DNA of 64,000 bases, taken from positions 147,458-211,457 of the forward strand of contig JAAGZO010000437.1 of assembly GCA_024206195.1 (NCBI GenBank), in the 5' to 3' direction. Below the pieces are notes generated by a model. It was not told the DNA's origin. It saw only the letters and a program-made list of their open reading frames with translations, and ran no database searches. The translations under genes and the position numbers were made by a program. Positions 3,513 to 50,505 of this stretch are shown here, piece by piece; positions within the stretch are counted from its first letter, which is position 1; every line of letters starts with the position of its first letter. The stretch is from a bacterium (GTDB lineage: Archaea > Nanoarchaeota > Nanoarchaeia > Woesearchaeales > UBA10216).

Positions 3513-4535
3513 ATGGAGAAGATCAAAGAAGGCAAGGCAACATTATTTACATCAACAGGTAAGGTGTCAAAGAAGATGGGAGTCTTCTATAATCCTGTCA
3601 TGAAGCTAAACAGAGATATCTCAGTCATTCTTCTAAAAGCGCTAAACAAGAAGCAGATGCAGCTTGCAGATCCCTTTGCAGGGACAGGTGTAAGAAGCAT
3701 TCGCTTTCTTAAGGAGCTCAAAAGCATAAGAAGAGTATACTTGAATGACACTTCAAAGGATGCAGTCAAGCTCATAAAAAAGAATCTAAAGCTGAACAAG
3801 GTTAAAGCAGAGATACACAATGAGGATGCAAACATCTTTCTCCTAAACAGCAAAGGATTTGATTATATTGACATTGATCCATTTGGCTTTCCAGGGCGTT
3901 TTCTTTTTGCAGCTGCTGAAAGAATATCCAGAAATGGCGTTTTAGCAGTCACTGCAACAGATACATCCGCTTTATCAGGTACAATGCCTGCTGCATGCAA
4001 GAGAAAGTACTGGGCAAAGCCCATGAAAAATGAGCTAATGCATGAGGTTGGATTAAGAATCTTGATCAGAAAAGTGCAATTGGTTGCAGCTCAGTCAGAA
4101 AAAGCTTTGATACCAATCTTCTCATATTCAAAGGATCACTATATGAGGGTCTTTTTCTTTTGCGAAAAAGGAAGAAAAAAAGCAGACAAGCTAATCAATC
4201 AACAGGGAGTTCTTGTTTACAATAAGGACTACGCAGGCCCGATGTGGCTTGGTCCATTGTGGGACAAAAAACTTGTAAGTAAAATGGCAAAGCAGAAGAT
4301 GGATGATGAAACAATGAAATTCATCAATGTAATAAAAAAAGAATCAGCAATAAGCACTGTTGGATTCTTTGACATACATAAAATCTGCAAGAAAAACAAG
4401 CTCAACATTCCAAAGAGAGACATTTTAATCAAGAAAATAAAAAAAGCAGGCTTTAAAGTATCAGAAACGCATTTCAGCCTTACAGGTCTGAGAAGCAACA
4501 TCACAATGGAGAAACTAGTGAGAATCCTAAAATGA
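3513..4535 (+). CDS. trm1: tRNA (guanine26-N2)-dimethyltransferase Trm1
   Basis: SAM-dependent methyltransferase that makes N2,N2-dimethylguanosine at tRNA position 26. The product is 340 aa. The N-terminus has the family hallmark of a KEGKA stretch followed by VFYNPVMKLNRDIS. The SAM motif is DPFAGTGVRSIRF (about 52-64) and the catalytic region is YIDIDPFGFPG near 118-128. The C-terminal Trm1 domain includes GPMWLGPLWD and a winged-helix-like tail. The TATA box (about 3482-3491) is 26 nt before the ATG. The stop overlaps the next start by 4 nt. Confidence 0.96.
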   Translation: MEKIKEGKATLFTSTGKVSKKMGVFYNPVMKLNRDISVILLKALNKKQMQLADPFAGTGVRSIRFLKELKSIRRVYLNDTSKDAVKLIKKNLKLNKVKAEIHNEDANIFLLNSKGFDYIDIDPFGFPGRFLFAAAERISRNGVLAVTATDTSALSGTMPAACKRKYWAKPMKNELMHEVGLRILIRKVQLVAAQSEKALIPIFSYSKDHYMRVFFFCEKGRKKADKLINQQGVLVYNKDYAGPMWLGPLWDKKLVSKMAKQKMDDETMKFINVIKKESAISTVGFFDIHKICKKNKLNIPKRDILIKKIKKAGFKVSETHFSLTGLRSNITMEKLVRILK

Positions 4536-33059: not shown

Positions 33060-34403
33060 TCACATTATATAACTCACATCCTTTTTGCTGCATATCTTCT
33101 TGGATCCTTTTACAAGCGTGATTGCTTCTGATAGATGATTCTTCATTATCTTCGGAGAGTTCTCTTTTGCTGCAATCCCTGCTGCATTCAGCGCTACATT
33201 CTTGATATCGCCTCCGCTGAGATTCTCCAGGTTAAAGCTGTTCAAATCCATTCTTTCATCTCTTGACCTTTTTGGAAGCACTTTATTAAGAATCTCGATT
33301 CCCTGCTTGTTGTCAGGCAGTGCAAAGTCAATGTGCATTGTCAATCGTCTTTCAAAAGCAGGATCATATTTTTCTGAAAAATTTGTTGCAAATATGCACA
33401 CGCCGTCAAATCTTTCAAGTTCTTTAAGCAGGGTATTCACCTGGCTCATTTCCCAGCTTTGTTCAAGTGAAGCCCTGTTCAGGGCTATTGCATCAGCTTC
33501 ATCAAAGAACAAGACCGCGTTTTTTACCTTTGCAATGCTGAAGATTTGCTGGATATGCTTTTCTGTGACACCTATAAAACAGTTTTGGAGCTGATCATAC
33601 CTCACCATAAGCAGCTTTGTTCCAAGTTCTTTTGCCAGGCAGTGTGCAGACAGGGTTTTTCCTGTTCCTGGAGGCCCTCTGAAGTTCAGAGTGGTTCCTT
33701 TGCCGTATTCTATAACTCTGTTGAAACCCCATTTTTTGAATATCAGGTCTTTCTTCTGTTCTCTGGAGAGAGCAGCTTTTAGTTTTTCTTTTAATGCTGA
33801 AGCTGCAACCAGATCGCTGAAACCGGATTTTGGTTCGATAATGTAATACAGGCTTTCCAGCGCATCAGGTGAATTTCTTTTTGCTTCCTCTTCCAAGGCC
33901 ATGTCCAGCTGTTGGTACTCATCAGTGTATTTCTTGTTTTTTAGGGCTAACTGGGCTTTGTATGAGACTTCATACACTGTTTTCATTGGCCTGAGCGGGT
34001 CAACAATCTTAAACACCAGCTTGTACCTCTTGAGGCTGCTTGACCTGAATCTTACTTTATGTTTCTTGAAGACGTCATTGGTCACTTTTATTCCGTTCTC
34101 ATGCTCAAGATCGCCTTTGTCGTTGCTCTCTTCAACAAGGTCCAGAAGGCAGCAGAACTCCTTGAACTTCAAAGGATATTCTGCCAGGAATTTTCCAATA
34201 GCGCTTTTGCTGTTCTTTGATGCTTCATATTTTTCTTTAACACGCTCCAGCCAGATTTTTTTCACTCTTTTCACAATTCGAGGATCTATGAACTCTTCTG
34301 GCTCAAAGTAGGAATGGCCGAAACGGGACATTTTGTCCTCAGGGTCAAACTCTTCCATGTAATTTATGTCATTGATAATCTGCAGATAGGATGTGTAGCT
34401 CAT
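33060..34403 (-). CDS. AAA+ ATPase of the FtsH/Cdc48 type with unique N-terminal half
   Basis: The product is about 447 aa. Residues 1-200 are a helical region not recognised. The AAA+ module follows: Walker A FRGPPGTGKTLSAH, Walker B VLFFDEADAIALNR, and an AFERRLTMHIDFALPD segment with arginine-finger-like residues. The start used overlaps the upstream stop as ATGA and has an AAGGGAG site at good distance. Last gene of an operon with a zinc ribbon and a DNA-binding-like protein. Proteins of this kind remodel or unfold partners; a phage-defence role is possible but unproven. Confidence 0.85.
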   Translation of the reverse strand: MSYTSYLQIINDINYMEEFDPEDKMSRFGHSYFEPEEFIDPRIVKRVKKIWLERVKEKYEASKNSKSAIGKFLAEYPLKFKEFCCLLDLVEESNDKGDLEHENGIKVTNDVFKKHKVRFRSSSLKRYKLVFKIVDPLRPMKTVYEVSYKAQLALKNKKYTDEYQQLDMALEEEAKRNSPDALESLYYIIEPKSGFSDLVAASALKEKLKAALSREQKKDLIFKKWGFNRVIEYGKGTTLNFRGPPGTGKTLSAHCLAKELGTKLLMVRYDQLQNCFIGVTEKHIQQIFSIAKVKNAVLFFDEADAIALNRASLEQSWEMSQVNTLLKELERFDGVCIFATNFSEKYDPAFERRLTMHIDFALPDNKQGIEILNKVLPKRSRDERMDLNSFNLENLSGGDIKNVALNAAGIAAKENSPKIMKNHLSEAITLVKGSKKICSKKDVSYIM

Positions 34404-34945
34404 CTGAACCATCTCCCTTTTGCTTCATGAAGCTTGTTTTGGTCTATCATTTCATTCAGCCATTTGCGCCAGTTATTTTTGCATATTTGGCTCATAATGA
34501 CACTCAGTTCTGTTTTGCCGAAGCTTCCCTGCGATTTGATAAAGCGTATGAACTCTGTTTTGGTCTCTATTTTACTGGGAATCAGTTCGTATAGTCTTTT
34601 CAATCGGCCTGATTTGAAGGCATTGCTTGACAGTATCTTTTTATAGTGCGCCTTGCTGACATAATTTGCTCCAAAACATTCTTTCACAAAAAAACCAATG
34701 CTGTAAACATCGCTTAGAGAGTCATGAGTGGCTATCAACTGCAGGTCATAATCAGAATAACTCCTTTTCTTTATAGTGTTCCTGAATCTCTTGGAAGCTC
34801 TTGCGAGCCTTAAATCAACCCTCTTCTTGAAGAATGAGGTTAATGTCTCCCCTTCCCTTCCGGGATCTATCTTTTTTGCAATCCTGTAGAACTGGTAGTC
34901 CTGAACAAATTGCTTTAACGAGCTATAGCCCTTCATTTTTTTCAC
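34400..34945 (-). CDS. Unknown 181-aa basic helical protein in AAA operon
   Basis: Not recognised. Lys/Arg-rich, helical, with a C-terminal IMSQICKNNWRKWLNEMIDQ segment that could be winged-helix-like. Coupled to the AAA ATPase gene by ATGA overlap and probably acts with it. Ribosome site GAAGGTG before the ATG. Confidence 0.65.
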   Translation of the reverse strand: MKKMKGYSSLKQFVQDYQFYRIAKKIDPGREGETLTSFFKKRVDLRLARASKRFRNTIKKRSYSDYDLQLIATHDSLSDVYSIGFFVKECFGANYVSKAHYKKILSSNAFKSGRLKRLYELIPSKIETKTEFIRFIKSQGSFGKTELSVIMSQICKNNWRKWLNEMIDQNKLHEAKGRWFR

Positions 34946-35474: not shown

Positions 35475-35633
35475 TCCGTAAGGTAATCATATACTAATAT
35501 AAAAGCTTTTCTATCATTCAGTAGAATAGTATACTGCTCAATAGAAATTCTTATAAAGCCAAGTTGATTTACCTGATTCATGGAAAACTATATATACCCT
35601 GCTGCACATTTATCTGAAAATGGGGGTGAAGAC

Positions 35634-36239
35634 ATGGGCAATAAGGTACTTATAGCTACATTATACAATCCTGATCCTGTTATTCTTGCAGCTACAAAGC
35701 TTGGTCCTGACAGGCTTATTCTTCTTATTGATGATAAACCAGACAAAGAGCAGGATAAGGCTCTGAAACTCATTCAGTCATCTCTTGGGAAGGTTATTGA
35801 GGTCAAATCAGTCAAATGTTCAGTATATGACATTGTAAAGACTGCAACTAAATGCGTTGAAGTCATTGATTTGCAGCCAAAGGATGACATTGTATATGTA
35901 AATATCACATCCGGCAGGAAAACAAAGGCTATTGGCCTTCTGTTTGCTGCTTATGCAAGGCATGACAAGGTCAAGAAGATAGCTTATAATCCTGAAGAGA
36001 ACAAAAAGGAGGTCATCTATCTTCCAAGGCTGAGCTTCAAGCTCACAGAAAGCCAGAAGAAGATACTTGAGTATTTGGAAGCAGAGAACTACAAAACAAC
36101 GAAAGAGCTCTCAGAAAAGGTTGACCTCTCGACAGCAATGCTCTACAGGGCAATCGATGAGCTCAAGGACATGGATCTCATCATATCAACCGAAGAAGGC
36201 ACAAAACTTACCGATGCAGGTAGGATAGCGGGGTTGTGA
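35634..36239 (+). CDS. CARF-wHTH regulator (Csa3-like)
   Basis: The product is about 201 aa from the ATG after GGGGGTGA. Residues 1-125 form a Rossmann-like CARF domain: KVLIATLYNPDPVILAATKL, then YVNITSGRKTKAIGLLFAAY, the ligand-loop signature. Residues 135-200 are a winged helix (LTESQKKILEYLEAENYKTT, STAMLYRAIDELKD). Csa3 proteins are transcription factors controlled by cyclic oligoadenylate. No CRISPR array or other cas gene is in the window. After an inserted amidotransferase gene, the drm genes follow. Its 3' end is duplicated at 37055-37093. Confidence 0.85.
   Translation: MGNKVLIATLYNPDPVILAATKLGPDRLILLIDDKPDKEQDKALKLIQSSLGKVIEVKSVKCSVYDIVKTATKCVEVIDLQPKDDIVYVNITSGRKTKAIGLLFAAYARHDKVKKIAYNPEENKKEVIYLPRLSFKLTESQKKILEYLEAENYKTTKELSEKVDLSTAMLYRAIDELKDMDLIISTEEGTKLTDAGRIAGL
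36201..36239 (+). repeat. 3' end of the CARF gene, repeat copy A
   Basis: This stretch encodes TKLTDAGRIAGL and the stop. It recurs at 37055-37093 with three differences in 39 bases, two of them synonymous. Confidence 0.8.
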
Positions 36240-36243
36240 AAGA

Positions 36244-37038
36244 ATGTGTGAATTATTAGGCATGTCATGTAATAAAGAAGTTGGTTTGGACTTCTCTTTT
36301 AAAGAGTTAGAAGAGCATAGCGAAGGCAATCCAGATGGGTGGGGTTTTGGTTTTTATGAAGGCCGTTTTGCGCAGGTTTTTAGGGAGCCCAAACAAGCAA
36401 AAATTAGTAAATTGGCTGATTTTTTCAAAGAGCCAGATTTTGTTAAGAGCAAAATAATAATATCTCATATACGTCGTTGGACTCAGAGTTCTTGTAAATA
36501 TAAAAACTGCCATCCTTTTGAAAGAGAACTGTTTGGTAGATCATGGATTCTTGCTCATAATGGTTCTGTTGTCAAAGACAGGATTAAGAATCTTCCTCAA
36601 GAACGCTTTTTTTCTCCTATTGGAACTACAGATACAGAAGTCGCTTTTTGTTATATAACGAACAAACTTAAAGAAAAACTTAAAAGCTTTGATGATCAGG
36701 AAAAGAAAGTTGAAATAATTAAGAATTGTGCAAAAGAAATTGGACCTAACTTTAATTTCTTATTGTCAGATTCAGAATACTTGTATGCTTATAGAAATGG
36801 TGAATATAAGAACTTGTACTATTTACTTCGGCATCCTCCCCATGAAGGTCTTGTAAAATTAAAGGACAACCAGTTAGAATTAGATTTATCTGTAATGAAA
36901 GGCGGTACTGAAAAAGCAGCCATAATAGCAACAGCAAAGTTAACTAATGAAACCCTGTTGAAAAAATTCGAAGTAAACGAGTTCATTGTTTTTAAAGATG
37001 GTGAAGTTGTTGAAAAGGAAATTATACAAAATGATTAA
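36244..37038 (+). CDS. Class II glutamine amidotransferase (YafJ-like), inserted gene
   Basis: The product is 264 aa. Cys2 follows the initiator Met (MCELLGMSC), the Ntn nucleophile. GNPDGWGFGFYEG, HIRRWTQ, AHNGSV and GTTDTEVAF are the family's active-site segments. The enzyme class hydrolyses glutamine or related amides. The start lies 4 nt after the CARF stop. It sits between the intact CARF gene and a truncated copy of that gene's end, so it appears inserted. Visibly more AT-rich than the CARF gene. Confidence 0.85.
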   Translation: MCELLGMSCNKEVGLDFSFKELEEHSEGNPDGWGFGFYEGRFAQVFREPKQAKISKLADFFKEPDFVKSKIIISHIRRWTQSSCKYKNCHPFERELFGRSWILAHNGSVVKDRIKNLPQERFFSPIGTTDTEVAFCYITNKLKEKLKSFDDQEKKVEIIKNCAKEIGPNFNFLLSDSEYLYAYRNGEYKNLYYLLRHPPHEGLVKLKDNQLELDLSVMKGGTEKAAIIATAKLTNETLLKKFEVNEFIVFKDGEVVEKEIIQND

Positions 37039-37054
37039 AAACAATATGTTAGGA

Positions 37055-37093
37055 ATAAAACTTACCGATGCTGGGAGGATAGCGGGGTTGTGA
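37055..37093 (+). pseudogene. Truncated second copy of the CARF gene end
   Basis: It encodes IKLTDAGRIAGL and stop, homologous to the last codons of 35634-36239. It lies 12 nt before the drmA start. Removing the segment from 36240 to here would place the CARF gene directly before drmA. Confidence 0.8.
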
Positions 37094-37105
37094 GTTTTGA
37101 TTATA

Positions 37106-40100
37106 ATGCATGAAGACACTAATATTGCTGAAAAGAAATTTTATGAAGATCTGATTAGTAATGTAACCTCAAAATTGACAGGTTCACATGATAAATATAA
37201 ACGTCTTATACTTCCAAATTATCCTAAAAAACTATTAATATTAGGGTCTCTTTCTGAAGAAGACCCCAATTTTATGGATAATGATTCTACAAGTGTCAAA
37301 GCAAATAGTCTTACAGTTATGTTTATGACTGATAAGCCAGTCAGTATCAAAGTAAAACCCGTTTTAAGTTTATACTATGGTATAAAAGAAGCAGAGGGAG
37401 AATTGGAAGAATATGGTTATAAAAGGGATAAAAATGTCCCATTTGTTTGGAAAAGATTGAAGACTTTTTTTCCAGAAGTAGAATTAAATGAAGATAAGAA
37501 GGAAGCTTTACTTAACTTTGGTGACTATAAAAAAAGTATCGAGGGAGATATAGAACACGAGTCTTTATATGAAGAGAAGAAACCAATATATGATTGGAGG
37601 GGGATGATAAGATTAGAGATCGATAGTTATCCTGAATTAGGGGGGAAGAATGTTGTTAAAGTCCAACTAATTAACAAGACACAACCTCAAAAGAGAAAAG
37701 ATGCTAAATATGAAACTTCATTTTTTGATTGTGGACTTAAAATTGAATTGGGAGGTATCGAGACTATTGATTTTGTTGATAAAAGAAAAAATTATTTTGA
37801 TAACCTCATAGAAATAAAATCGAAGTTTAAGACCTTTAATTGCGGATATAACTATGATTCTGAAAGAAATACCTTAGTTACTGTGCCTTTCAAAAAAATT
37901 GAACAGAAAAAAGTTGTACCAGCAAATAGTTTTGAATATAACGGGGAAGAAATGTTAACCAAATTTTCGGATCTTTCTAAATCAAATAAAATACTCAAAA
38001 ATCTTTTGGAGGTTATAAAAGAAAAACTAAAAGAGTATCAGAATGGGGACAAGTATGGCTCTGATAAGGATTATACGAAGATAACTCAGAATTTTGAAAA
38101 TGTATTGAACCGATATGAAGAAGGAATAAAATGTTTAGAAAGAAATGATAAAGCAAGAAAAGCTTTCCAGCTAATGCAAGAATCATTTGATAAATATACA
38201 GAAAAAGAGGAGTACCATTCATGGAGAATATTCCAAATAGTATTTATTGTTTCAATTATTCCAGATATTGTAGAAAATAAGCGAAGAGATCAAGTTGGAC
38301 TATTACATGTGCCTACAGGTGGAGGAAAATCCGAGTCTTATTTTGGTTTGGTAGTATTCTCTGCTTTTTATGATAGGTTAGTAGGTAAGAAATTTGGGAC
38401 AACAGCGATTACAAAATTTCCTCTTAGAATGTTATCTGTTGACCAACTTCAGAGAATCGCAGGCATATTTATTTTTGCTGAAGAAGTAAGAAAGAACAAA
38501 TTAAATCAAAGTGGTGACTTCCCCTTTTCCGTTGCGTATTTTGTGGGTTCAAGTGATGAATTTCCCAGAAAGACGAGGAAGGTGGTTGAAGACATTCAAA
38601 AATACGAAAAAGTAGGTAAAGAAAAAGAAGGCAAAATCATACAGGAATGTCCCTTATGCGGTGATAAAGTTATTCTACATTATGATAAACATAATAAAAT
38701 AATTCACATTTGTAAAAATGATCAATGTAAAAAGGAGTACGAACTTTTTTTCACTGATGAAGAAATCTACAGATATTTACCAACATTTATTGTTTCCACA
38801 GTAGACAAATTTGCTGGAATTGCTTCGCAAAGAAGATTTAGAAATTTATTGGGTGGAAAGCTTAATCTTTGTACGAAAGGTCATGGGTTTATCCCTCAAG
38901 GAGATTTTTGTGAAGTTGAGAGTAAACATGAAACCTGCAAAGATCCAGGAGAACCTTATGAAATTAATTTTCATACTTCTCCTTCATTGATAATACAGGA
39001 TGAAATGCACTTGATTAGGGAAGGGTTTGGAACAATAAATAGTCATTTTGAAACGTTTATCGAAGCATTAAGTTGTGTTATGGGTAATAATCCATTTAAG
39101 CATATTACAATGACTGCAACAGTAAAAGGAGCTGAACAACAAAACCACACTATTTATTGGAAGGAAAAAACTAATATATTTCCATGGCATTCTCCATTGG
39201 GTAAGGGAGAAAATGATATATTCTACAAAAAGTTCAAAAATAAAAATCAAAGGATAATCATTGGATTAAAACCAAACTTTAGAGATAATCAATATGCTAC
39301 ACTAATCACTTTAAGATATTTAGCAGAATTTATCAATTCTTTCGAGAGCAATATCGAGAAGTATTCAAAAGAATATGGTGTTGATCCAAAAGTCTTAAAA
39401 TCAATCATAATAAAATACAAATCTTTGATGACATATCATAACAAAAAATCGGATGTTAATTCAATGAATTTCTATATGAATGATGTGGTTAATAGTAAAC
39501 TTACAAGGATTGATTATTCAGTAGTTCATAATATTTTATCAGGGGATAATACCTTAGACCAGATCCGAGATCATATTGAGAAAATTAAAAGATTTAATCT
39601 GTACGAGAAAAAAATATCTGCGCTTTCTTGCACAAGTATTGTATCTCATGGGGTGGATATATCTAGATGGAACTTTATGTGTTTTCAAGGCGTACCCGGT
39701 TCTACATCAGAATATATCCAAGCTTTGAGTAGGGTTGGTAGAAAAGATACTGGTTTAATCTTTCTATGGTTTTATCCAAATAGGGTTAGGGATATAAGTT
39801 TTTATGATGCATTTAAAGAGTTTCATAGCCAAATAGACTTATTTGTAGAAACTGTACCTGTGGAAAGATGGACAAAACTAGGTTTTAAGCAGACCTTTCA
39901 TTCACTTTTCTGTGGAGCAATATTAAACTATATGTCCCATACTCTCAACAAAGCAATATATAATGTGAATCATATAATTGAGGTCTTCTTTACTGATGAT
40001 AACCTAACTAATAATGAGAGAAAAAAGCAGTTAATTGATTTTCTAAATGATGCTTATTGTGTTTTTGATGGTCAACCAAACAGTAATTTCATGGTACAAG

Positions 40101-40309
40101 AGATTGCGAAAGGTGTTAATGAAAGACTAAATGCATTATATGCATATCATAGTAATCAGGCTAATGATCCTAAAGTATTCTTTCCTATGGCCTTAAGCAA
40201 GAATGATAAGAAGTATTGGAAGACTCAGTTTGGTATGAGAGGGATCCAAGACACAATAGGTTTATCGAATTATGAAGGCAATTTTATTAAGAGGTACAGA
40301 AATGAGTGA
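37106..40309 (+). CDS. drmA: DISARM helicase DrmA
   Basis: Large helicase-like ATPase, 1067 aa. Walker A is VPTGGGKSES (about 402-411). The DExH-like motif is DEMHLIREGFG. A zinc knuckle CPLCGDK...CKNDQC lies near 515-550. Helicase C-terminal motifs are SHGVDISRWNFMCFQG and YIQALSRVGRKDTG. The length and the combination with the next genes match DrmA, the DNA-translocating core of the DISARM anti-phage system. Start chosen at ATG 37106, not the in-frame TTG upstream. Confidence 0.88.
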   Translation: MHEDTNIAEKKFYEDLISNVTSKLTGSHDKYKRLILPNYPKKLLILGSLSEEDPNFMDNDSTSVKANSLTVMFMTDKPVSIKVKPVLSLYYGIKEAEGELEEYGYKRDKNVPFVWKRLKTFFPEVELNEDKKEALLNFGDYKKSIEGDIEHESLYEEKKPIYDWRGMIRLEIDSYPELGGKNVVKVQLINKTQPQKRKDAKYETSFFDCGLKIELGGIETIDFVDKRKNYFDNLIEIKSKFKTFNCGYNYDSERNTLVTVPFKKIEQKKVVPANSFEYNGEEMLTKFSDLSKSNKILKNLLEVIKEKLKEYQNGDKYGSDKDYTKITQNFENVLNRYEEGIKCLERNDKARKAFQLMQESFDKYTEKEEYHSWRIFQIVFIVSIIPDIVENKRRDQVGLLHVPTGGGKSESYFGLVVFSAFYDRLVGKKFGTTAITKFPLRMLSVDQLQRIAGIFIFAEEVRKNKLNQSGDFPFSVAYFVGSSDEFPRKTRKVVEDIQKYEKVGKEKEGKIIQECPLCGDKVILHYDKHNKIIHICKNDQCKKEYELFFTDEEIYRYLPTFIVSTVDKFAGIASQRRFRNLLGGKLNLCTKGHGFIPQGDFCEVESKHETCKDPGEPYEINFHTSPSLIIQDEMHLIREGFGTINSHFETFIEALSCVMGNNPFKHITMTATVKGAEQQNHTIYWKEKTNIFPWHSPLGKGENDIFYKKFKNKNQRIIIGLKPNFRDNQYATLITLRYLAEFINSFESNIEKYSKEYGVDPKVLKSIIIKYKSLMTYHNKKSDVNSMNFYMNDVVNSKLTRIDYSVVHNILSGDNTLDQIRDHIEKIKRFNLYEKKISALSCTSIVSHGVDISRWNFMCFQGVPGSTSEYIQALSRVGRKDTGLIFLWFYPNRVRDISFYDAFKEFHSQIDLFVETVPVERWTKLGFKQTFHSLFCGAILNYMSHTLNKAIYNVNHIIEVFFTDDNLTNNERKKQLIDFLNDAYCVFDGQPNSNFMVQEIAKGVNERLNALYAYHSNQANDPKVFFPMALSKNDKKYWKTQFGMRGIQDTIGLSNYEGNFIKRYRNE

Positions 40310-42215
40310 GCGATTTGTAGAATATTCAGGTAACTCGGCCCCTTTTCATGTGGGGATAGGATTAATGCTCTTTAACAGGGGTTTATCTTTTATCACTACT
40401 AAAGTCTTTCCTGATGATAATGAGAGTAGAGGCTTAAAGATTAATGATGAAATCGCTCTCAAGAATAAACTCTTCAGAACTATTCAGAGAAGATATAATG
40501 CCCGAATACATAACAATATGTTAAAATATAGGGACTTATCACCAAATCATCTAGATAAATTAAGGATCGTTAGATATAAATTTCTTAAGGGTTTTGACGA
40601 TGATGATCCTTCAGGTGAATATAAGCTTTACCCTAACTCATTTGTCTGTAAATGTTGTGGCCATTATGCGATAAATAAGCCTCTTAATATTTTTAATCCA
40701 AATAAATGCCTTTTATGTAATAAAGGTGAATATGAACAAATATCCTTATTAAGATTCTGTAAGGACTGTGGTATAATAGACAAATTTTATTATCAATGCA
40801 AAAAACACGGCAAGGATTATATAAAATTAGTTAGAGGGGATAAGGATAATCTTCTGACCTGGAAATTCAAGTGTGATAAATGCGAGAAAGTTGAACTTGA
40901 TATATTCAAATTTAAATGTAAACACAACTTAAGCCCCAATACAGAACCCATAAGGGATGGGGAAACAAGGTTCCAACCAATAACAATAAGAGAGTCGGGT
41001 ATATTCTCCCCCCAGGTCGTTACCCATATTGACCTCCCAAAAACAGAGCAGTTAGAAAAAGTAAATATTGATAAGGATTTAGTAATGCTTGGTTTCTATT
41101 TTGATGCATTTAAGAATATTGAAAAAATTAAATCAATATCAGATATATACAAATCTCTGAAAACGTATGAGAGTCTCGAATCTATGAATTATTCTATGCC
41201 ACCAGAACTTAAGCAAGACCTTGATAAGATCAAATCAATACTTACAGAATTAGAAAAACTAAGGCAAGGAGTAGCTGAAGATACACTCAATGAGTTTAAT
41301 GAACTCAGTATTCTAAAAGGAACTGCTGGTCAATTAAATCAACCCCCTAAATTTATTGATTACATTAAAGAACACGAATCAGAGGAGTTACTTATTACAG
41401 AGAAAATTGATCATTATAATGCGATTTTAGAAGAATTTGGAATTGAAGACATAACTTACTTGTCAAATGTTAAGCTGATTAATTCTTTGATAGGACTTAT
41501 CAAAGGAGTAAACAAGTTCTGGGATGAATCTAGCACGCCCCACTTTGAATTATTTTGGCAAGGTCTCTTGGATGAGATTATCCGCCCATATTACAAACAG
41601 GTAGATAGAGAGAATGAATCATTTTATGTTTACTCTTATCCTTTTGAGACAGAATCGATCTTGATAGAATTAAAACCCGAAAATATTTGTTCCTGGTTGT
41701 TTAAAAACAAGCTGATATCAGAAGAGTATAAGGATAAAAGTAAAGCAAAGGAGTTCTTACTTAAATTAAATAAGGAGAGTAATGAAAAAGCTTACAATTC
41801 AGTTTATAAACTTCTCCATACCCTATCACATGTTTTACTTAAGAAAATTCACCTATATACAGGTATTGGGATAGATTCTTCAGGTGAGAAAATATTTGTA
41901 AATGGGGGGGCAATATTACTTTATTCCAATAATAACCTTAATATTGGGGCTTTCCAGTATTTATTTGAAAATAAAATGTTCTGTGAAGACAGCATCTTTA
42001 CCGATATTAAGAAACATATAAGAGATTGTAGTTTTGATCCTTTGTGCATTGAAGGGAAGAGAGACCATGGAAAACAAGCAAAGGGAGGGGCTTGTTTCTC
42101 TTGTTTGTACATTCCAGAATTTGTTTGTTGTAATTTTAATTTTAATTTAGACAGAGATGTTTTCATTGGAAAAGGAAAAAGAGGCATAATAAATTCATAT
42201 TGGGGTCTAAAATGA
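40302..42215 (+). CDS. drmB: DISARM protein DrmB (DUF1998 domain)
   Basis: The product is 637 aa. A first zinc cluster CKCCGHYAINKP...CLLCNKG lies near 109-140 and a second CKDCG...C about 25 residues later. The C-terminal Cys cluster DPLCIEGKRDHGKQAKGG...CFSCLYIPE is characteristic of DUF1998. DrmB partners DrmA and controls its loading on DNA. The ATG overlaps the end of drmA (8 nt). Confidence 0.86.
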   Translation: MSERFVEYSGNSAPFHVGIGLMLFNRGLSFITTKVFPDDNESRGLKINDEIALKNKLFRTIQRRYNARIHNNMLKYRDLSPNHLDKLRIVRYKFLKGFDDDDPSGEYKLYPNSFVCKCCGHYAINKPLNIFNPNKCLLCNKGEYEQISLLRFCKDCGIIDKFYYQCKKHGKDYIKLVRGDKDNLLTWKFKCDKCEKVELDIFKFKCKHNLSPNTEPIRDGETRFQPITIRESGIFSPQVVTHIDLPKTEQLEKVNIDKDLVMLGFYFDAFKNIEKIKSISDIYKSLKTYESLESMNYSMPPELKQDLDKIKSILTELEKLRQGVAEDTLNEFNELSILKGTAGQLNQPPKFIDYIKEHESEELLITEKIDHYNAILEEFGIEDITYLSNVKLINSLIGLIKGVNKFWDESSTPHFELFWQGLLDEIIRPYYKQVDRENESFYVYSYPFETESILIELKPENICSWLFKNKLISEEYKDKSKAKEFLLKLNKESNEKAYNSVYKLLHTLSHVLLKKIHLYTGIGIDSSGEKIFVNGGAILLYSNNNLNIGAFQYLFENKMFCEDSIFTDIKKHIRDCSFDPLCIEGKRDHGKQAKGGACFSCLYIPEFVCCNFNFNLDRDVFIGKGKRGIINSYWGLK

Positions 42216-42985
42216 AGAATATATTAGAATATACTAACCAAATTTTGAAGAATGATACGATGGATTTAGATGAATTTAAAGAAAGGTTGCTAAAAGAGTT
42301 TAACAACCTTCAATTAATAGATGTAATAATAAGAAAAGGTTTGCAGGATAATAATCTCGAAATAGAAAATGATACTGTTAACCTCCTTAAGGAGTTTGAT
42401 TACAAGAAATCTCAATCATCAGTGGACATTTGTTTTAGTATACCTCCCTTCGAGAAAGTTGCTCTAGAAACGATATTGAAAACAAAGAGGGTAAATTTAG
42501 TTACTATTGAAGACTCTTTTAAGCATTTAATCAACATATCAAAAAATAAAATTAAAATATCCTCTCCTTTCTTTGAACTTAGTGGGTGGAATGTATTAGA
42601 AAAAGATTTTATTAAATTTATGGAATTTGGGGGAAAAATATTTATCTTATGCAGAGGTAAGGAGATAAATAGTTCTGATAATAGGTGCATAGCTATAAAA
42701 AAGTTATTACAAAAAGTTAGGGATTTAGGGTTTCAGAATAATATTGAATTTAGAGAGTATCATTATGCCAATAAACAAAAGAATAAAAAAGGATATATCA
42801 AATCGAGCACACATGCTAAACTATTCATATCTGATAAGGAAGAAGCATATGTTGGTAGTGGAGAAATTAGAAAGAACAGTTTTGATATAAACTTTGAAAT
42901 GGGAGTTTTAATCAAAGGAGACCTTGTTAAAGATATTGAGGGCGTCTTTGATTTAATGTTTGAAAGTTCTAAAAAGATAGTCTAA
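42212..42985 (+). CDS. drmC: DISARM phospholipase-D-like protein DrmC
   Basis: The product is 257 aa. One HKD-type motif STHAKLFISDKEEAYVGSG near residues 202-220 is followed by RKNSFDINFE, the pattern of PLD-family nucleases. DrmC is the PLD member of DISARM. Start at ATG 42212 overlaps the drmB stop; an in-frame TTG upstream is rejected. The N-terminal half is helical with no known motif. Confidence 0.84.
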   Translation: MKNILEYTNQILKNDTMDLDEFKERLLKEFNNLQLIDVIIRKGLQDNNLEIENDTVNLLKEFDYKKSQSSVDICFSIPPFEKVALETILKTKRVNLVTIEDSFKHLINISKNKIKISSPFFELSGWNVLEKDFIKFMEFGGKIFILCRGKEINSSDNRCIAIKKLLQKVRDLGFQNNIEFREYHYANKQKNKKGYIKSSTHAKLFISDKEEAYVGSGEIRKNSFDINFEMGVLIKGDLVKDIEGVFDLMFESSKKIV

Positions 42986-42987
42986 AA

Positions 42988-45465
42988 ATGGAAGATTTCA
43001 AAACCAGTTTAGTTACATATTCTGTAGAAAAAGACAAACCTATTGAAGACCTCAGTTTAACAAAATTATCAGAAACACTAATTTTTACATTTAATAGAGC
43101 TATAGAAACAAAAAAAAATCTTATAGTTGTTTATCCAGAAAGTATATTTCGTCCTTCAGTTATATTAGGTTACAACTTCATGAAAGATCAAGGAAAAGAT
43201 GTTCTTTTCTTTTCTCACTACTTGAAAGAACACCTTAAGAATTTCTGTATGCTGCAGGAAAAGCAAGCTGGTTGGTTTCTTTGGCATAACTATCTTCCTT
43301 GCATATTGGATGATAAGAGTCTGAATATTAAACTTAATTTCAGAAAAGGGGTTAAGACAACAACCAAAAAAAGTGAGATCGATGAATTAATAGATAAATT
43401 AGAGAACAATATGGGTCAGTTCAATAAATTAATTTTTTGTAGTTCTTTAGTTAATGCACGAAAACTAGCAGAAATAAAAGATTTAAACTTTGAGGATGTA
43501 GCTTATAGTTTTAAAGAAAACTTAGGATTATGCATCTTTGAAAACCTTTCACTAAAAATATTTAGTGAAGATGATATTAATTCTTTCACTCAATGGTTAA
43601 CCCCCTTAATGGACAAAAACACATTCTTCATATTTCACTTTTCAAATTTCATAGATTCAGGATTCATAAAGCAATTACAGGAAAAATCTAACTCTGTAGT
43701 ATTATATTTAACGCCTGACTTTTTATATAAAACTAAAAAATTCTTTTATGAAGGATCTAACCTCCTTAAATCACCTAATGAATACTTGAGTAATCAATAC
43801 ATAATTGAATCAAAACATATATATGAAAAAGACGAAAAGAAGATAGAATTAGTTACAATAAAAGGTTTAAAATATTCTTTATCAGACCTTTTTAAAGATA
43901 TTCATATTGCTTCAGTTAAGAATTTATTACCTGGAGTAATGCTAAATAGGATAAAAAAGGTTTTGTTTATGCTTCCAAGACTTAGTGTTCACCCTTCTTC
44001 ATGGGGAAGGGCATTGAGGTTTAAATTTAGAGATGGAAGTTGGAGACACATCTCAATACTTCAATTAGTAGACGAACTTGATGGGTACATAAAAGAGAAA
44101 AAAGAAGGGAATGATATACTTAATAGAATTAAACATAAAGTTGTTTCTTTATACAATCTTTTCGATGAAACAGATAGATATAAAGAAAGTCACCCATTTA
44201 AGATTAAATCTAAACCATACATAACGCTTGAGATGGTTGATAAATTTAGTAAATCCTCTGATGGAGGTAATATTATTGTTGGAGTGTATGACTCAAGTGA
44301 GAGAAGAATCTTAGAAGAGAGTGTAAAAAGCTTAGTAAGCTCTTCTGATAAAATTAGTGTAAGAACAATTAGGTCTATAATACAACATAATAATGTAGAT
44401 AGTGAGAGTATTCTCATACTTCCATCATATTTAATATCTAGGTATATAGCTGAGTATTTTAAACCGTTTAAAAAGATTATCATTCTATCTTATGAGGGAG
44501 AAGAAGTGTCACAAGTTAAAAAACAAATGAAGATATTGGGGGACTCAAAAAATATATACACTGATTTAGTTATTGATAGTTTTGAGAGTTTATATAGCTC
44601 ATTAAACTGGAAGAAGGATAATTTCTTACAAGAACTTGAAAAGTTCAGAGTTGTAGTAGAGACTGAAACTCCTGCAAAAGAAGGCGCTACAGCTAGTAAT
44701 CCTGGTGATGTTTTGGATATGATAAAAGAAAGGATATTGGACGATTCCAGTCTAAAAGCCAATGAGAATGCATTTGAAGAGTCTCAAGATGAAGAAGTAC
44801 TCGATGAAGAGTATAATGTACTGAGAAAAGATTATATGTTAATACTCTCTTCTCTGGATGGGGAAGGAACAAAGAATATTGAACTGCCAAAGACTGCCAC
44901 CTTACTTTACATAGATGAAAACCAAGAGGTTCAAGAAAGAGATATTAGGGAAATAAAAGAAGGAGATAGAATTGCTTTAATTCAAGGGGATGAAAGGAAA
45001 TCATTTATTGATTATTTGGCTAAAAGGTCAGGCTTAGAAGATGAGATCGATCTATTCCATATTAAGAGATGGAAAGAAAAACTAAATCTATTCATTGAGG
45101 AAAAATCATTAAATGAAAATAAACTGTTTGATATATACATTAATAAAGGAGGGGATAAAAAAAGCAACCCTTTCAGAAGATGGAAAGATTCAATTAGAAA
45201 CATCGCCCCTCAACGGAAAGAAGATCTGAAAATAATTGGTGAGATTATTGAATATGAATATCTTGTAGAAAATATTGATAAAATATTCTTTGATATTAAG
45301 AAGCTAAGAAAGTCTCATAGATTAATCGGAAGGGAGATAAATAAGATAATACGAGATAAAATCTCCGGGCAATTTACAGATTCTTCATTTGATGATTTTG
45401 AACTATCAAACAAGATAAATATATACAGAATAGATAAACTCTGTAAGAATGATCAAAAGATTTAA
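42988..45465 (+). CDS. drmE: DISARM class 2 protein DrmE
   Basis: The product is 825 aa, soluble, AT-rich. Size, position directly after drmC and overall alpha/beta repeated segments (NLIVVYPESIFRPSVILG, KIIILSYEGEEVSQVKK) fit DrmE of class 2 DISARM. I recognise it mainly by operon position and length, so confidence is lower than for drmA-C. DrmE's biochemical function is not established. No methyltransferase gene follows. Confidence 0.7.
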   Translation: MEDFKTSLVTYSVEKDKPIEDLSLTKLSETLIFTFNRAIETKKNLIVVYPESIFRPSVILGYNFMKDQGKDVLFFSHYLKEHLKNFCMLQEKQAGWFLWHNYLPCILDDKSLNIKLNFRKGVKTTTKKSEIDELIDKLENNMGQFNKLIFCSSLVNARKLAEIKDLNFEDVAYSFKENLGLCIFENLSLKIFSEDDINSFTQWLTPLMDKNTFFIFHFSNFIDSGFIKQLQEKSNSVVLYLTPDFLYKTKKFFYEGSNLLKSPNEYLSNQYIIESKHIYEKDEKKIELVTIKGLKYSLSDLFKDIHIASVKNLLPGVMLNRIKKVLFMLPRLSVHPSSWGRALRFKFRDGSWRHISILQLVDELDGYIKEKKEGNDILNRIKHKVVSLYNLFDETDRYKESHPFKIKSKPYITLEMVDKFSKSSDGGNIIVGVYDSSERRILEESVKSLVSSSDKISVRTIRSIIQHNNVDSESILILPSYLISRYIAEYFKPFKKIIILSYEGEEVSQVKKQMKILGDSKNIYTDLVIDSFESLYSSLNWKKDNFLQELEKFRVVVETETPAKEGATASNPGDVLDMIKERILDDSSLKANENAFEESQDEEVLDEEYNVLRKDYMLILSSLDGEGTKNIELPKTATLLYIDENQEVQERDIREIKEGDRIALIQGDERKSFIDYLAKRSGLEDEIDLFHIKRWKEKLNLFIEEKSLNENKLFDIYINKGGDKKSNPFRRWKDSIRNIAPQRKEDLKIIGEIIEYEYLVENIDKIFFDIKKLRKSHRLIGREINKIIRDKISGQFTDSSFDDFELSNKINIYRIDKLCKNDQKI

Positions 45466-45490
45466 ATATGACTGGTTATTAAATATATTC

Positions 45491-46633
45491 ATGTCTGAAA
45501 AGAGGAAGATATTACTTGTAGAACCAGATTTTCCAATTCCCAATAAAAGTAAAAACCACTCGAATTTTCTGCCTATAGGATTATTAAAACTTGCTGCTTA
45601 TTATAGAAAAAAAGGCCATAAAATAAAACTAAATAGGGGAAATCACCCAGCCGGATTTTATCCAGATAGAATTTTGGTAACTTCGCTCTTTACTTACTGG
45701 TCGAAGTATGTAAAAGAAACTGTTCAATATTACAAAAAATGTTATCCCAAAGCTAGAATCGAGGTGGGAGGAATATATGCAACGCTTATGCCAGAACATT
45801 GTAAAAGACAGACAGGTTGCGATAAGGTGTTCATAGCTCAACACAAAGGAGCAGATAAGTGTTTTCCTGCTTATGATCTTGTTAATGTTGATTATCAAAT
45901 TATTCATGGTATGAGGGGATGTACAAATAAATGTCCCTTTTGCGGTATTTGGAAAATTGAAAGAAAAGGATTTAAGAATGCAGAGCAAATAAAGAAAGAA
46001 ATATCTTCAAATAGAATTATCTTTTATGATAATAATATGCTAGTAAACCCATACATTGAAGAAATTTTGAAGATGCTTGCAAATACTACTAATAATGGAA
46101 AAGTACTACACTGCGAGTGTCAAAGCGGTTTCGATGGAAGGGTCTTGATGCAGAAACCCCATTTAGCAGAAATGCTAAAAAAGGCACGTTTTGAAAATAT
46201 TAGGGTCGCCTGGGATTTTCCATGCACTGAAAAAAATTTACAAATGGTTGAAGGGTGGATAGAGCTCTTAGAAAATGCAGGATATAAGCGTAAAGATATT
46301 TATATATTTATGATCTATAATTGGGACTATCCACATTCTCATATGGAACTAAAAAGGGAAAAATGTTATGAATTGGGTGTACAAATAGCTGATTGTAGGT
46401 ATAGGCCGCTGAATCAGACATTTGATATGTATAATCCTAGAGCAGATAATCAGACTAATGAGGATTACTATATTCATCCGAATTGGACTGATGCTGAGAT
46501 AAGAAGATTTAGAAAAAACGTGAGGAAACATAATATTTGTATTCGACATAAAATACCTTGGGATAGATACGATCAAGAACTTGAAAGGTTAAATAGCAGA
46601 AGATTAATTGAAATAAAAGTAAGAAAAAAGTAG
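45491..46633 (+). CDS. Radical SAM protein with B12-binding-like N-terminal domain
   Basis: The product is 380 aa. The N-terminal 130 residues resemble a cobalamin-binding-like Rossmann domain (KILLVEPDFPIPNKS, PDRILVTSLFTYWSKYV, KARIEVGGIYATLMPEHC) without an obvious DxHxxG motif. The radical SAM core has GCTNKCPFCGIWK, a CxxxCxxC cluster. Start chosen because a GATTTAAATATG box lies about 25 nt upstream. It follows drmE closely and takes the place where a DISARM methyltransferase could be. Substrate unknown. Confidence 0.85.
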   Translation: MSEKRKILLVEPDFPIPNKSKNHSNFLPIGLLKLAAYYRKKGHKIKLNRGNHPAGFYPDRILVTSLFTYWSKYVKETVQYYKKCYPKARIEVGGIYATLMPEHCKRQTGCDKVFIAQHKGADKCFPAYDLVNVDYQIIHGMRGCTNKCPFCGIWKIERKGFKNAEQIKKEISSNRIIFYDNNMLVNPYIEEILKMLANTTNNGKVLHCECQSGFDGRVLMQKPHLAEMLKKARFENIRVAWDFPCTEKNLQMVEGWIELLENAGYKRKDIYIFMIYNWDYPHSHMELKREKCYELGVQIADCRYRPLNQTFDMYNPRADNQTNEDYYIHPNWTDAEIRRFRKNVRKHNICIRHKIPWDRYDQELERLNSRRLIEIKVRKK

Positions 46634-47843: not shown

Positions 47844-48011
47844 ATGCCTATGCGCCTTCAAAAACAGCTTTCTAAGAAGATTGGGGATAAAGAATACGCA
47901 AAATACGTTATAGTGATACCTCCAAAGACAATAGAAAAACTTGGGTGGAAAACAGGACAAGAGCTAAAAGCCAAACTCGAAAAAGGAAAGCTAATCATAG
48001 AAAAAGAATAA
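47844..48011 (+). CDS. AbrB/SpoVT-like regulator
   Basis: The product is 55 aa. KEYAKYVIVIPPKTIEKLGW and KTGQELKAKLEKGKLIIEKE form the AbrB strand-hairpin pattern. The box ATATTTAT lies 27 nt before the ATG, giving a leaderless mRNA. The membrane HNH gene starts 26 nt after its stop and is probably cotranscribed. Likely binds the nearby palindromes. Confidence 0.72.
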   Translation: MPMRLQKQLSKKIGDKEYAKYVIVIPPKTIEKLGWKTGQELKAKLEKGKLIIEKE

Positions 48012-48037
48012 ATGATACGTATAAAACGAGGCAAATT

Positions 48038-49492
48038 ATGAGAAGAACATTATTCTTTTTAGCTCTATTTCTCATTTTACTTAACTTTTCAAGTCTGGTT
48101 GACGCAAAATGTCAATATGAAACTATAGAAGAATACGATGAGTCTGGTAATGTTTTAACCTATGAAGGAACAGATATTATTGCAGGAGAGGCACTTAACA
48201 TTTCTGATTTTAGTGAAGGGAATCATGCTTCCTTCATGGTTTATAACCCGAATTCGTTTAAATTAATGGCAGTTTTCAATTTCACAGTTGATGGTTTTAT
48301 TCAGGAAGAAAAGTCATATGGTAAGTGGATAGATCCATTATCATTTGAAAAAGTGCAGGAAACATGTTATAATGGCGAACAATTCGGAAATTGTTCGATA
48401 AATCAGTCTACTTTGTTTTACTATGTATCAAAACCAGAAGTAATGTTTGTTACTGAAGGGAAAATCAAGAGAAATAGGACGCTCTGTGATAAATCATGCT
48501 CAAGTGATGGTGAGTGCGGTTTTGGAGTATGTAATATAAACGGTTATTGTGGAAATGAAAAGATAGTTCCTTGTTCAAGCGGGACTCAAAATTGTCAAAA
48601 TTTAAGTTGTGAGACTCCTGGAGCTAAAAAGTTTGGTGAAGCTTTTTCATGCGTATGGGAATGTAAATCAGGTGTTGGAAGTGATGGAATATGCAAATTA
48701 AATGATAAAGAAGAATGTTCTAGCGATTCTGATTGCTTTTCTGGGATGTGCAATATTGCAGGAGTGTGTGGAGAATTTGTTGCTTGTCCGAACAGAAAAC
48801 AAAAGTGTAATGATGAATTGTGTGTGTTTCCCTCTGTTAAAAAAGTAGGTCAGGCTTATTCTTGCGAATGGGAATGCAAAAGCGGTGTTGGAGAAGATGG
48901 TGTTTGTAAAGAAAGTTTCATGACACTCGTTAAAAGATTTATTCTATTTACAGCTTTAATAGCATTGATTATTGCTCTTACAATATTCTTAATCAAGCGG
49001 GCAACTGGTGAAGGACCGCTAAGAAAATTAAGAAAGCAAATTAATGAACTAGAGAAGCAGCGTGAAGAAAAAAAGCAGGATTTTAGAAAAGCAGAAATTA
49101 AATTAAAAAAACAGTGGAAATCACACGAGATTTCAAAAGGAGACTTAAATAAGCGTAATGAAGAATTAACTCAAGAAGCCCAAGAAATGGAAGATATATC
49201 AATACTAATTGAACTTAACATTAAGAAGGTTTTAAGCTCCTATGAAAAAATGTATGGGCATCCTTTTGTTTTAGATGGAAGAGGTTATGTCAGATTCGCT
49301 AAAGATTGGTTAGACCCTTCCAAAATGGGGGGATATTTGCATCATCATGTTTGGAAAATAAACAACAAAGGAAAAGAAAAACCTCCAGGTTATGAGATAC
49401 ACCATAAGGATGGAAATAAATTGAATAATTCAATTGAGAATCTAGAATTGTTAACAGAAAAAGAACATATGAAAAAACATGGTAAGTTTTGA
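48038..49492 (+). CDS. Cys-rich ectodomain, TM helix and cytoplasmic HNH nuclease fusion
   Basis: The product is 484 aa from the ATG before the signal peptide (RRTLFFLALFLILLNFSSLV). An ectodomain follows, then two Cys modules each ending CxxxWECKSGVG. One TM helix near 302-320 (FILFTALIALIIALTIFLI) is followed by a basic stop-transfer. A charged coiled coil comes next. The C-terminal 60 residues are an HNH_3-type nuclease: YEIHHKDGNKLNNSIENLEL then EKEH, with the His-His, Asn and final His. The nuclease faces the cytoplasm. An unusual architecture; a membrane receptor with a nuclease effector is one reading. Confidence 0.82.
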   Translation: MRRTLFFLALFLILLNFSSLVDAKCQYETIEEYDESGNVLTYEGTDIIAGEALNISDFSEGNHASFMVYNPNSFKLMAVFNFTVDGFIQEEKSYGKWIDPLSFEKVQETCYNGEQFGNCSINQSTLFYYVSKPEVMFVTEGKIKRNRTLCDKSCSSDGECGFGVCNINGYCGNEKIVPCSSGTQNCQNLSCETPGAKKFGEAFSCVWECKSGVGSDGICKLNDKEECSSDSDCFSGMCNIAGVCGEFVACPNRKQKCNDELCVFPSVKKVGQAYSCEWECKSGVGEDGVCKESFMTLVKRFILFTALIALIIALTIFLIKRATGEGPLRKLRKQINELEKQREEKKQDFRKAEIKLKKQWKSHEISKGDLNKRNEELTQEAQEMEDISILIELNIKKVLSSYEKMYGHPFVLDGRGYVRFAKDWLDPSKMGGYLHHHVWKINNKGKEKPPGYEIHHKDGNKLNNSIENLELLTEKEHMKKHGKF

Positions 49493-49602
49493 TATCTCGA
49501 AAACCCCAATTATCCCAAACCCTCAGAATTTATCTCAGTACTGCTTTGTAAAAGCGAAAACTTTATACATTATTAATGGATATCTTATTATTGTGGGATA
49601 TT

Positions 49603-50505
49603 ATGACAATACCAGACTATCAATCATTGATGTTACCTTTATTGAAGTTTCTCTCTGATGAACAGGAACATAAAACAAGAGAAGCAGTCGAAAAGCTATC
49701 TGATGAATTTAACCTATCTGAAGATGAAAGAAAAGAATTATTACCTTCTGGTCAGCAACCAATTATAGATAACAGAGTAGGATGGGCAAGAACATATATG
49801 CTTAAAGCAGGATTGCTTGAAGCTCCAAAAAGAGGCTATATCAAGATTTCAGAAAAGGGTAAAGAAATATTAAAACAAAATCCAGAAAGAATAAATGTAA
49901 AATTCCTTGAACAATTTCCAGATTTTATCGAATTTAGAACTATTAAAAAAGAGACCTCAAAGGAAAATTCAAAAGAAGATGAAGAATTAGAAGATATTAC
50001 TCCTGATGAATTAATGGGAAAAGGTTATAATTTAATAACTGCAAGTTTGGCTCAAGAGTTGCTTGAAAAAATAAGAAAAGTCGATCCCTCTTTTTTTGAA
50101 GAAGTTGTTGGAAAATTGCTTTTTGCAATGGGTTATGGTACCTGTGAAATAACTGGAGGTTCAGGCGACAAAGGAGTTGATGGAATTGTAAATCAAGATA
50201 AATTAGGTTTGGATAGAATATTTTTTCAAGCAAAGAGGTATGATGAATCAAATTCTGTAAATGCAAGGGATGTTCGAGATTTTGTTGGAACCTTAGATTT
50301 ACACGGAGTAAATAAAGGTATATTTATTACAACTTCTCGGTTTCCAAAAGATACAAATGAAATTCTTAAAAAAACTCCAAAAAATATTATTTTAATAGAT
50401 GGGCCAAAACTTGCTAAATTAATGATGGAACACAATGTTGGTGTGAGCTCACAAAAAACTTATCAAATTAAACAAATAGATACTGATTTCTTCCCTGAAG
50501 AATAG
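49603..50505 (+). CDS. mrr: Mrr-type restriction endonuclease
   Basis: The product is about 300 aa. The N-terminal winged-helix Mrr_N domain starts MTIPDYQSLMLPLLKFL. The C-terminal PD-(D/E)XK domain has EVVGKLLFAMGYGTCEITGG, GDKGVDGIV (catalytic Asp) and FFQAKRYDES (QxK). Mrr enzymes cut modified DNA. Start chosen at MTIPDYQ, the family's usual start; a more upstream ATG would precede the expected transcript start from the CTTTATAC box. Confidence 0.93.
   Translation: MTIPDYQSLMLPLLKFLSDEQEHKTREAVEKLSDEFNLSEDERKELLPSGQQPIIDNRVGWARTYMLKAGLLEAPKRGYIKISEKGKEILKQNPERINVKFLEQFPDFIEFRTIKKETSKENSKEDEELEDITPDELMGKGYNLITASLAQELLEKIRKVDPSFFEEVVGKLLFAMGYGTCEITGGSGDKGVDGIVNQDKLGLDRIFFQAKRYDESNSVNARDVRDFVGTLDLHGVNKGIFITTSRFPKDTNEILKKTPKNIILIDGPKLAKLMMEHNVGVSSQKTYQIKQIDTDFFPEE

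Follow-up and report, generated by a model that had tools for sequence, protein, structure and literature searches.

A DISARM-like operon with a radical SAM gene and no visible methyltransferase, headed by a CARF regulator in a Woesearchaeales contig: a candidate self-marking enzyme

We analysed a 64,000-nucleotide window of archaeal DNA (Woesearchaeales; assembly GCA_024206195.1, contig JAAGZO010000437.1, positions 147,458 to 211,457). Seven genes on its plus strand, spanning 35580–46633 of the window, encode a regulator with CARF and winged helix-turn-helix (wHTH) domains, a class-II glutamine amidotransferase (GATase_4), DrmA, DrmB, DrmC, DrmE, and a radical S-adenosylmethionine enzyme (rSAM). 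A first-pass annotation had described the drm genes as overlapping. The open frames of drmA/drmB and drmB/drmC indeed overlap, as do those of drmE and the rSAM gene, but drmC and drmE are separated by a gap of 2 bp. Active-site motifs were found in DrmA (GGGKS, DEMH, and QALSRVGR), DrmC (HxK(x)4D), rSAM (CxxxCxxC), and the amidotransferase (Cys2). We propose, with a probability of roughly 0.55, that this is a DISARM-derived DrmA-DrmB-DrmC-DrmE cassette whose methyltransferase has been replaced by a cobalamin-type radical SAM protein as the self-marking enzyme.

Class 2 DISARM is defined by drmMII, drmA, drmB, drmC, and drmE. In profile hidden Markov model (HMM) searches, PADLOC models matched all four Drm proteins of the window; the match was strong for DrmA, moderate for DrmB and DrmC, and ran through the C-terminal domain for DrmE, on which Pfam DrmE_C scored 58.8 bits, above its cut-off of 27. 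The NCBIfam DISARM models were also matched, all with scores below their cut-offs (score/cut-off in bits: DrmA 325.8/950, DrmB 88.6/240, DrmC 30.2/133, and, on DrmE, DrmE_fam 70.6/80 and DISARM_DrmE 46.8/250). The predicted fold of the DrmE-like protein suggests a resemblance to superfamily 2 (SF2) helicases. As in class 2 DISARM, the DrmA helicase and DrmB (DUF1998) core, the DrmC PLD nuclease, and DrmE stand together in one operon. No DrmMI or DrmMII methyltransferase was found in the operon or elsewhere in the window: a Pfam scan of 30 window proteins gave no DNA methyltransferase, the sole methylase being the tRNA enzyme TRM1 (3513–4535), and a methyltransferase motif screen of start-to-stop frames of at least 90 amino acids gave just NPPY in a 153-residue frame, SPPP in a 113-residue frame, and lone ENV triplets. 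The span without a visible methyltransferase comprises 35.6 kb upstream and 17.4 kb downstream of the locus, on a contig of 211,457 bp. Together with the matches to PDB entries, these searches bore out, for the window, the first-pass view of a DISARM-like locus without a methyltransferase. The locus differs from class 2 DISARM in having rSAM and no visible methyltransferase, in its scores under the NCBI cut-offs, and in a separate DrmA clade. Because it would work like DISARM yet lacks the methyltransferase feature, it was filed, from its sequence, as a DISARM variant with a separate DrmA clade and a predicted anti-phage role.

DrmA was surveyed by the phylum of a reference record, in 294 genomes for Methanoperedens, 371 for Woesearchaeota, and 395 for Bacteroidota, and was found in 19, 1, and 15 genomes, respectively (35 in total). 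Haloferax volcanii, run as a control, gave a DrmA match too. The rSAM gene was present in 11 of these 35 and lay within 10 kb of DrmA in ten; the copy of genome G304 was on another contig. None of the ten rSAM-adjacent loci had a C5 methyltransferase within 20 kb of DrmA, versus 16 of the 25 others, and the genome-wide numbers (E ≤ 1e-10) were 3/10 versus 20/25. Nine DrmA loci, several of them near a contig end, had neither rSAM nor a C5 methyltransferase. Among 12 Drm-rSAM genomes, a C5 match exceeded the family cut-off in four and was full-length in three. In a DrmA tree of 33 rows, the 16 rSAM-linked DrmAs, including that of the window, formed one clade with a Shimodaira-Hasegawa approximate likelihood ratio test (SH-aLRT) value of 100. 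All ten rSAM-adjacent DrmAs of the survey fell inside this clade, and the 17 of the 25 others that were placed all fell outside. Within the clade, the rSAM gene was located either upstream (L111, L112, and L114) or downstream of the drm genes, and the rSAMs stemmed from very different branches of the rSAM family.

A contig scan by rSAM alignment (best 80 of 88 stretches) yielded 79 distinct rSAM loci from many archaeal and bacterial groups. Neighbours within five genes were counted at the 78 loci with a called rSAM gene, and partner families were named from one scanned member per family or from a match to the window proteins. DrmB was near rSAM at 12/78 loci and DrmA at 11/78; PbeC was near it at 19 and PbeA at 15 (19 loci with either or both), and a GHKL ATPase and a ParB-DpnII family protein at 13 each. 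Among named strains, Methanobrevibacter curvatus DSM 11111 (L051) carries PbeA-PbeC-rSAM, and M. filiformis DSM 11501 (L054) carries PbeC-rSAM at a contig end. At 11 of the 12 Drm loci, the rSAM gene was co-oriented with the drm genes and came after them; at the twelfth (L042) it was convergent. DndB-family proteins (PF14072) adjoined rSAM at L014, L060, L112, L114, and L115. When the genes of the rSAM stretches were screened for motifs, one PP-loop protein turned up and C5 methyltransferases did not. A search with DrmE, in which scoring was confined to the 7,995 candidates with the most shared words, returned ten proteins besides the query, seven of them close. For two of the ten, the longest contig had the same length (16,069 and 25,417) as that of a close rSAM relative, which is suggestive of linkage. 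The radical SAM gene had initially been noted as following the drm genes; its position stands, but it is no mere follower, being beside DrmA in all ten surveyed clade members and common to other restriction-type modules. For these two reasons, it is our first choice for the enzyme that would supply the missing modification.

The rSAM phylogeny also bears on this role. A rapidly built tree of 82 rSAMs, with seven context labels assigned by us and many weak branches, showed at least 26 changes of partner type, with at least 10 changes between DISARM and other contexts and at least 11 between Pbe and others. The closest kin of the window rSAM (L002, L060, L003, L004, and L005) lay beside ParB-DpnII, DndB, or GHKL genes, in five stretches where Drm genes were not found. 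Such repeated switching of partners is the behaviour expected of a shared modification enzyme. Neighbour clustering found no single protein family common to all rSAM-carrying module types, and thus gave no indication of a shared protein substrate. Besides its cysteine motif, rSAM has an N-terminal domain of the B12-binding type (Pfam B12-binding below its cut-off) and is predicted to bind cobalamin; its best whole-length matches were B12-type rSAMs, not viperins. Its identity to AprD4, MgmA, MiaB, and TsrM, which have the B12-type radical SAM fold, was 10–16%. The substrates of these four (partly taken from entry titles) are a sugar, a protein, tRNA, and tryptophan; none is DNA. Searches of the open-licence literature turned up no account of an rSAM paired with DISARM, with Pbe, or with defence islands. 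An archaeal radical SAM family, arCOG00938, is listed without conserved context in PMC4158269.

The rSAM gene was also detected at 15 loci in viral contigs, 11 of them at 40–49% best-segment identity. The restriction genes used as queries were in none of these 11 contigs. A C5 methyltransferase or a fragment of one was present in seven of the 11 stretches (L148, L149, L150, L152, L153, L155, and L156), a count without a background rate, and several of these loci looked closely related by gene order. Phages are well known to use modification enzymes as counter-defence, and the viral occurrence of rSAM therefore fits a DNA-modifying role.

Pbe, the other recurrent partner, was examined separately. 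PbeA, which combines an HKD nuclease with an SF2 helicase according to the available sections on this system, was found in 29 of the 294 genomes surveyed, and the 21 with a strong PbeA (E ≤ 1e-130) were examined: DndC was present in 10 and rSAM in three. One rSAM copy lay about 0.14 kb from PbeA in divergent orientation; the other two were partial and on other contigs, one with an internal stop. A C5 methyltransferase was present in nine of the 21 genomes, in none of the three with rSAM, and within 20 kb of PbeA in G222 only. No Pbe family was among the listed PADLOC hits for the ten window proteins scanned.

On our preferred reading, rSAM would mark host DNA and this mark would protect self, while DrmAB(E), acting with the DrmC nuclease, would engage DNA that is incoming or lacks the mark, so as to block or degrade it. 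The operon would have arrived behind the CARF-wHTH gene and would probably be expressed under CARF, through which it could be tuned by a nucleotide ligand produced upon infection. A sensing of methylation and 5' overhangs by DrmAB is described in the available text of PMC9142583, and by analogy we infer that it might extend to the rSAM mark. A wider proposal, to which we give slightly less than even odds, is that the rSAM family forms an exchangeable DNA-marking module: it would install an undescribed DNA modification by which four or more unrelated restriction machineries (of the DISARM-like, Pbe-like, GHKL-ATPase, and ParB-DpnII kinds) recognize self, and phages would have copied it for counter-defence. 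Restriction systems are known to mark the host by methylation, by phosphorothioation, and by insertion of 7-deazaguanine. If true, a radical-SAM mark common to several restriction modules would be a new chemistry of self-recognition, and many rSAM-carrying archaea and bacteria would gain a testable DNA modification. Of 553 PbeAC homologues, 165 are reported to have no adjacent modification component (PMC6459918), and the rSAM might then also be the partner of some of these.

This arrangement resembles DndCDEA-PbeABCD (PMC6459918), whose published Pbe module relies on phosphorothioate marks, and the CxC-ABC-ATPase systems (PMC10853773), in which a multi-gene restriction module is likewise paired with a non-methyl DNA mark. 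The published versions use DndC or methyltransferases, however, and rSAM is not mentioned in the sections of these papers that were covered. Dpd and BRIGADE (PMC12458937) share YprA/DrmA-type helicases, base hypermodification, and PLD nucleases with this picture, but their mark is a 7-deazaguanine derivative and the parts covered contain no such rSAM.

Several observations weigh against the proposed marking role. Chemistry on DNA is a candidate activity of the rSAM, and the B12-type radical SAM fold group also includes enzymes acting on tRNA, proteins, and small molecules. The rSAM-linked DrmAs are monophyletic, so the contrast between rSAM and C5 methyltransferase represents a single evolutionary switch, one event that a Fisher test counts repeatedly, and eight of the 25 DrmAs without an adjacent rSAM were left off the tree. 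Two of the ten adjacent rSAM copies may be damaged: that of G266 (L113, G266:C10:88204-89319) crosses one in-frame TAG and may be a broken gene or have a recoded stop, and the match in G012 begins at profile position 112 of 378. None of the ten counted partner families occurred at 18 of the 78 rSAM loci. Amino-methyltransferases lay near some rSAM genes (family F14 at 5/78 loci, and at L080; by motif only at L006, L007, L012, L013, and L023), and L036, a Drm-rSAM locus outside the DrmA tree, had two of them downstream. Among the 21 Pbe genomes, all of one phylum, rSAM was adjacent to Pbe in just one, and it never co-occurred with DndC (0/3 vs 10/18, p = 0.21, small numbers and not significant). 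Finally, the mark may not be essential, since DISARM is proposed, in the available text of PMC9142583, to discriminate also by DNA ends.

This last point leads to the view that no self-mark is needed, with DrmAB reading DNA structure, CARF keeping the system off until infection, and rSAM serving the effector complex, with the Drm proteins as one possible substrate. The 5'-overhang specificity and trigger loop proposed in the same text agree with it, as does a CARF stop codon that touches restriction-type cassettes in six of 14 relatives. Nevertheless, rSAM occurs in all ten surveyed clade members, yet no CARF relative was found at L111–L115, where 5–6 kb upstream of DrmA was covered, and no protein family common to the module types was evident as a substrate of rSAM; we consider this view improbable. 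Somewhat less doubtful, though still unlikely, is that rSAM makes a small antiviral molecule like viperin, or modifies tRNA like MiaB, as an extra effector in defence islands. Its best whole-length matches argue against a viperin, and the partner exchange among restriction-type modules, the C5 methyltransferases in 7/11 viral contigs, and the DndB-family neighbours point to DNA. An ordinary DISARM with its methyltransferase elsewhere in the genome and an incidental rSAM is very improbable. It would be compatible with a window covering only 64 kb of a 211-kb contig and with the C5 methyltransferases elsewhere in three of the ten rSAM-adjacent genomes. The other seven had no C5 match at E ≤ 1e-10 (two short weak ones in G008; genome completeness is not known), and rSAM adjoined DrmA in 10/10 surveyed members of the clade.

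The regulator at the head of the locus was confirmed as a CARF-wHTH protein by PADLOC, Pfam, and NCBIfam, although its annotated start at 35634 was an internal ATG. Its CARF domain is followed by the wHTH, as in Csa3/CasR, and ligand binding is predicted. The GATase_4 gene between CARF and drmA had not been mentioned. The GC content of the CARF gene was 0.411 (0.415 for the AAA gene at 33060), versus 0.28–0.33 from GATase to rSAM. Two direct copies of the 43-bp CARF tail (39/43 identical) bracket the GATase gene, suggesting that a cassette was inserted, or that recombination occurred, behind CARF. Since this duplicated tail stands before drmA, the drmA cassette would have been inserted at the CARF 3' end with drmA directly behind it, and GATase_4 is probably a later insertion. 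No GATase_4 relative was found among the frames of the best 80 of 88 rSAM stretches. Nor was a CARF relative found in the flanks of other rSAM/DISARM loci, where the upstream flank of DrmA covered in the main set ranged from 0 to no more than about 3.6 kb; CARF was thus not counted as a DISARM component.

In 237 genomes of the phylum of the Woesearchaeota record, this CARF was found in 15 genomes (17 matches), and 14 stretches (L178–L191) were examined. A same-strand gene followed within 400 bp in 12 of 14; L180 and L184 end there. A start codon of the next gene stood 5 bp or less from the CARF stop in eight (L179, L181, L182, L186, L188, L189, L190, and L191). HMM scans of ten proteins behind CARF in seven of the 14 stretches, with no control gene compared, gave restriction or defence-type genes in all seven. 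GmrSD-type genes were found in L179, L182, and L191. L181 encodes a YhcG/NucS-like nuclease and, at a greater distance, an Eco57I methylase; L188 encodes a PD-(D/E)XK protein and, again farther away, PbeA-PbeC. HsdM likewise lies at some distance in L189, and the UvrD-PD-(D/E)XK protein of L178 does not touch CARF. A touching start codon and restriction-type genes coincided in six of the 14 relatives, which lends some support to the earlier option of regulation by ligand. In these related archaea, CARF-wHTH thus precedes varied restriction genes (GmrSD, type I, IIG, Pbe, and UvrD-nuclease), and the locus points to CARF regulators at the head of exchangeable restriction cassettes. The CARF-tail duplication was not clear in the 14 relatives, L183 alone giving a weak copy (30/45).

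Table 1. Features of the DISARM-like locus, in window positions.
Feature	Position	Strand	Evidence or remark
CARF-wHTH regulator, Csa3/CasR-like	35580..36239	+	PADLOC CARF3 5.6e-68; TIGR01884 Csa3 77.4 bits (cut-off 60.2)
CARF 3' end, copy 1 of 43-bp direct repeat	36197..36239	+	39/43 identical to 37051-37093
Class-II glutamine amidotransferase (GATase_4)	36244..37038	+	Pfam GATase_4 3.6e-69; between both CARF-tail copies
CARF 3' end, copy 2	37051..37093	+	stops 3 bp short of drmA TTG start
DrmA-type SF2 helicase	37097..40309	+	TTG start, next ATG 37106; PADLOC DrmA 5.3e-124; PDB 7s9v DrmA 3.7e-43
DrmB-like protein, DUF1998 family	40272..42215	+	PADLOC DrmB 4.4e-23; PDB 7s9v DrmB 2.3e-7
DrmC-like PLD-family nuclease	42200..42985	+	PADLOC DrmC 3.1e-16; PLDc_2 6.8e-10; HAKLFISD motif
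DrmE-like protein	42988..45465	+	PADLOC DrmE 2.7e-9 (C-terminal part only); Pfam DrmE_C 7.2e-16
Radical SAM enzyme (rSAM), N-terminal B12-binding-type domain	45449/45491..46633	+	candidate self-marking enzyme

A trio of a GHKL ATPase, a protein of about 300–350 amino acids, and rSAM recurred at L003, L006, L007, L011, L012, L018, L030, L038, and L045. Two members of the middle protein were scanned, with no Pfam match and one weak PADLOC match to DpdC (0.001); the unit is possibly an undescribed defence system.

Near the operon, an AAA ATPase on the minus strand (33060–34412) resembles IetA (PADLOC 1.6e-36). An Mrr-type modification-dependent restriction enzyme (49576–50505; PADLOC mREase_IV 9.7e-77) is encoded 3 kb 3' of the rSAM gene; if rSAM marks DNA, the mark would have to be compatible with this enzyme. 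The protein encoded at 47945–49492 has an HNH endonuclease-like C-terminal region (PHROG HNH 1.9e-12). A Serpin gene was also present in this archaeal contig (23644–24990; Pfam 3.5e-120).
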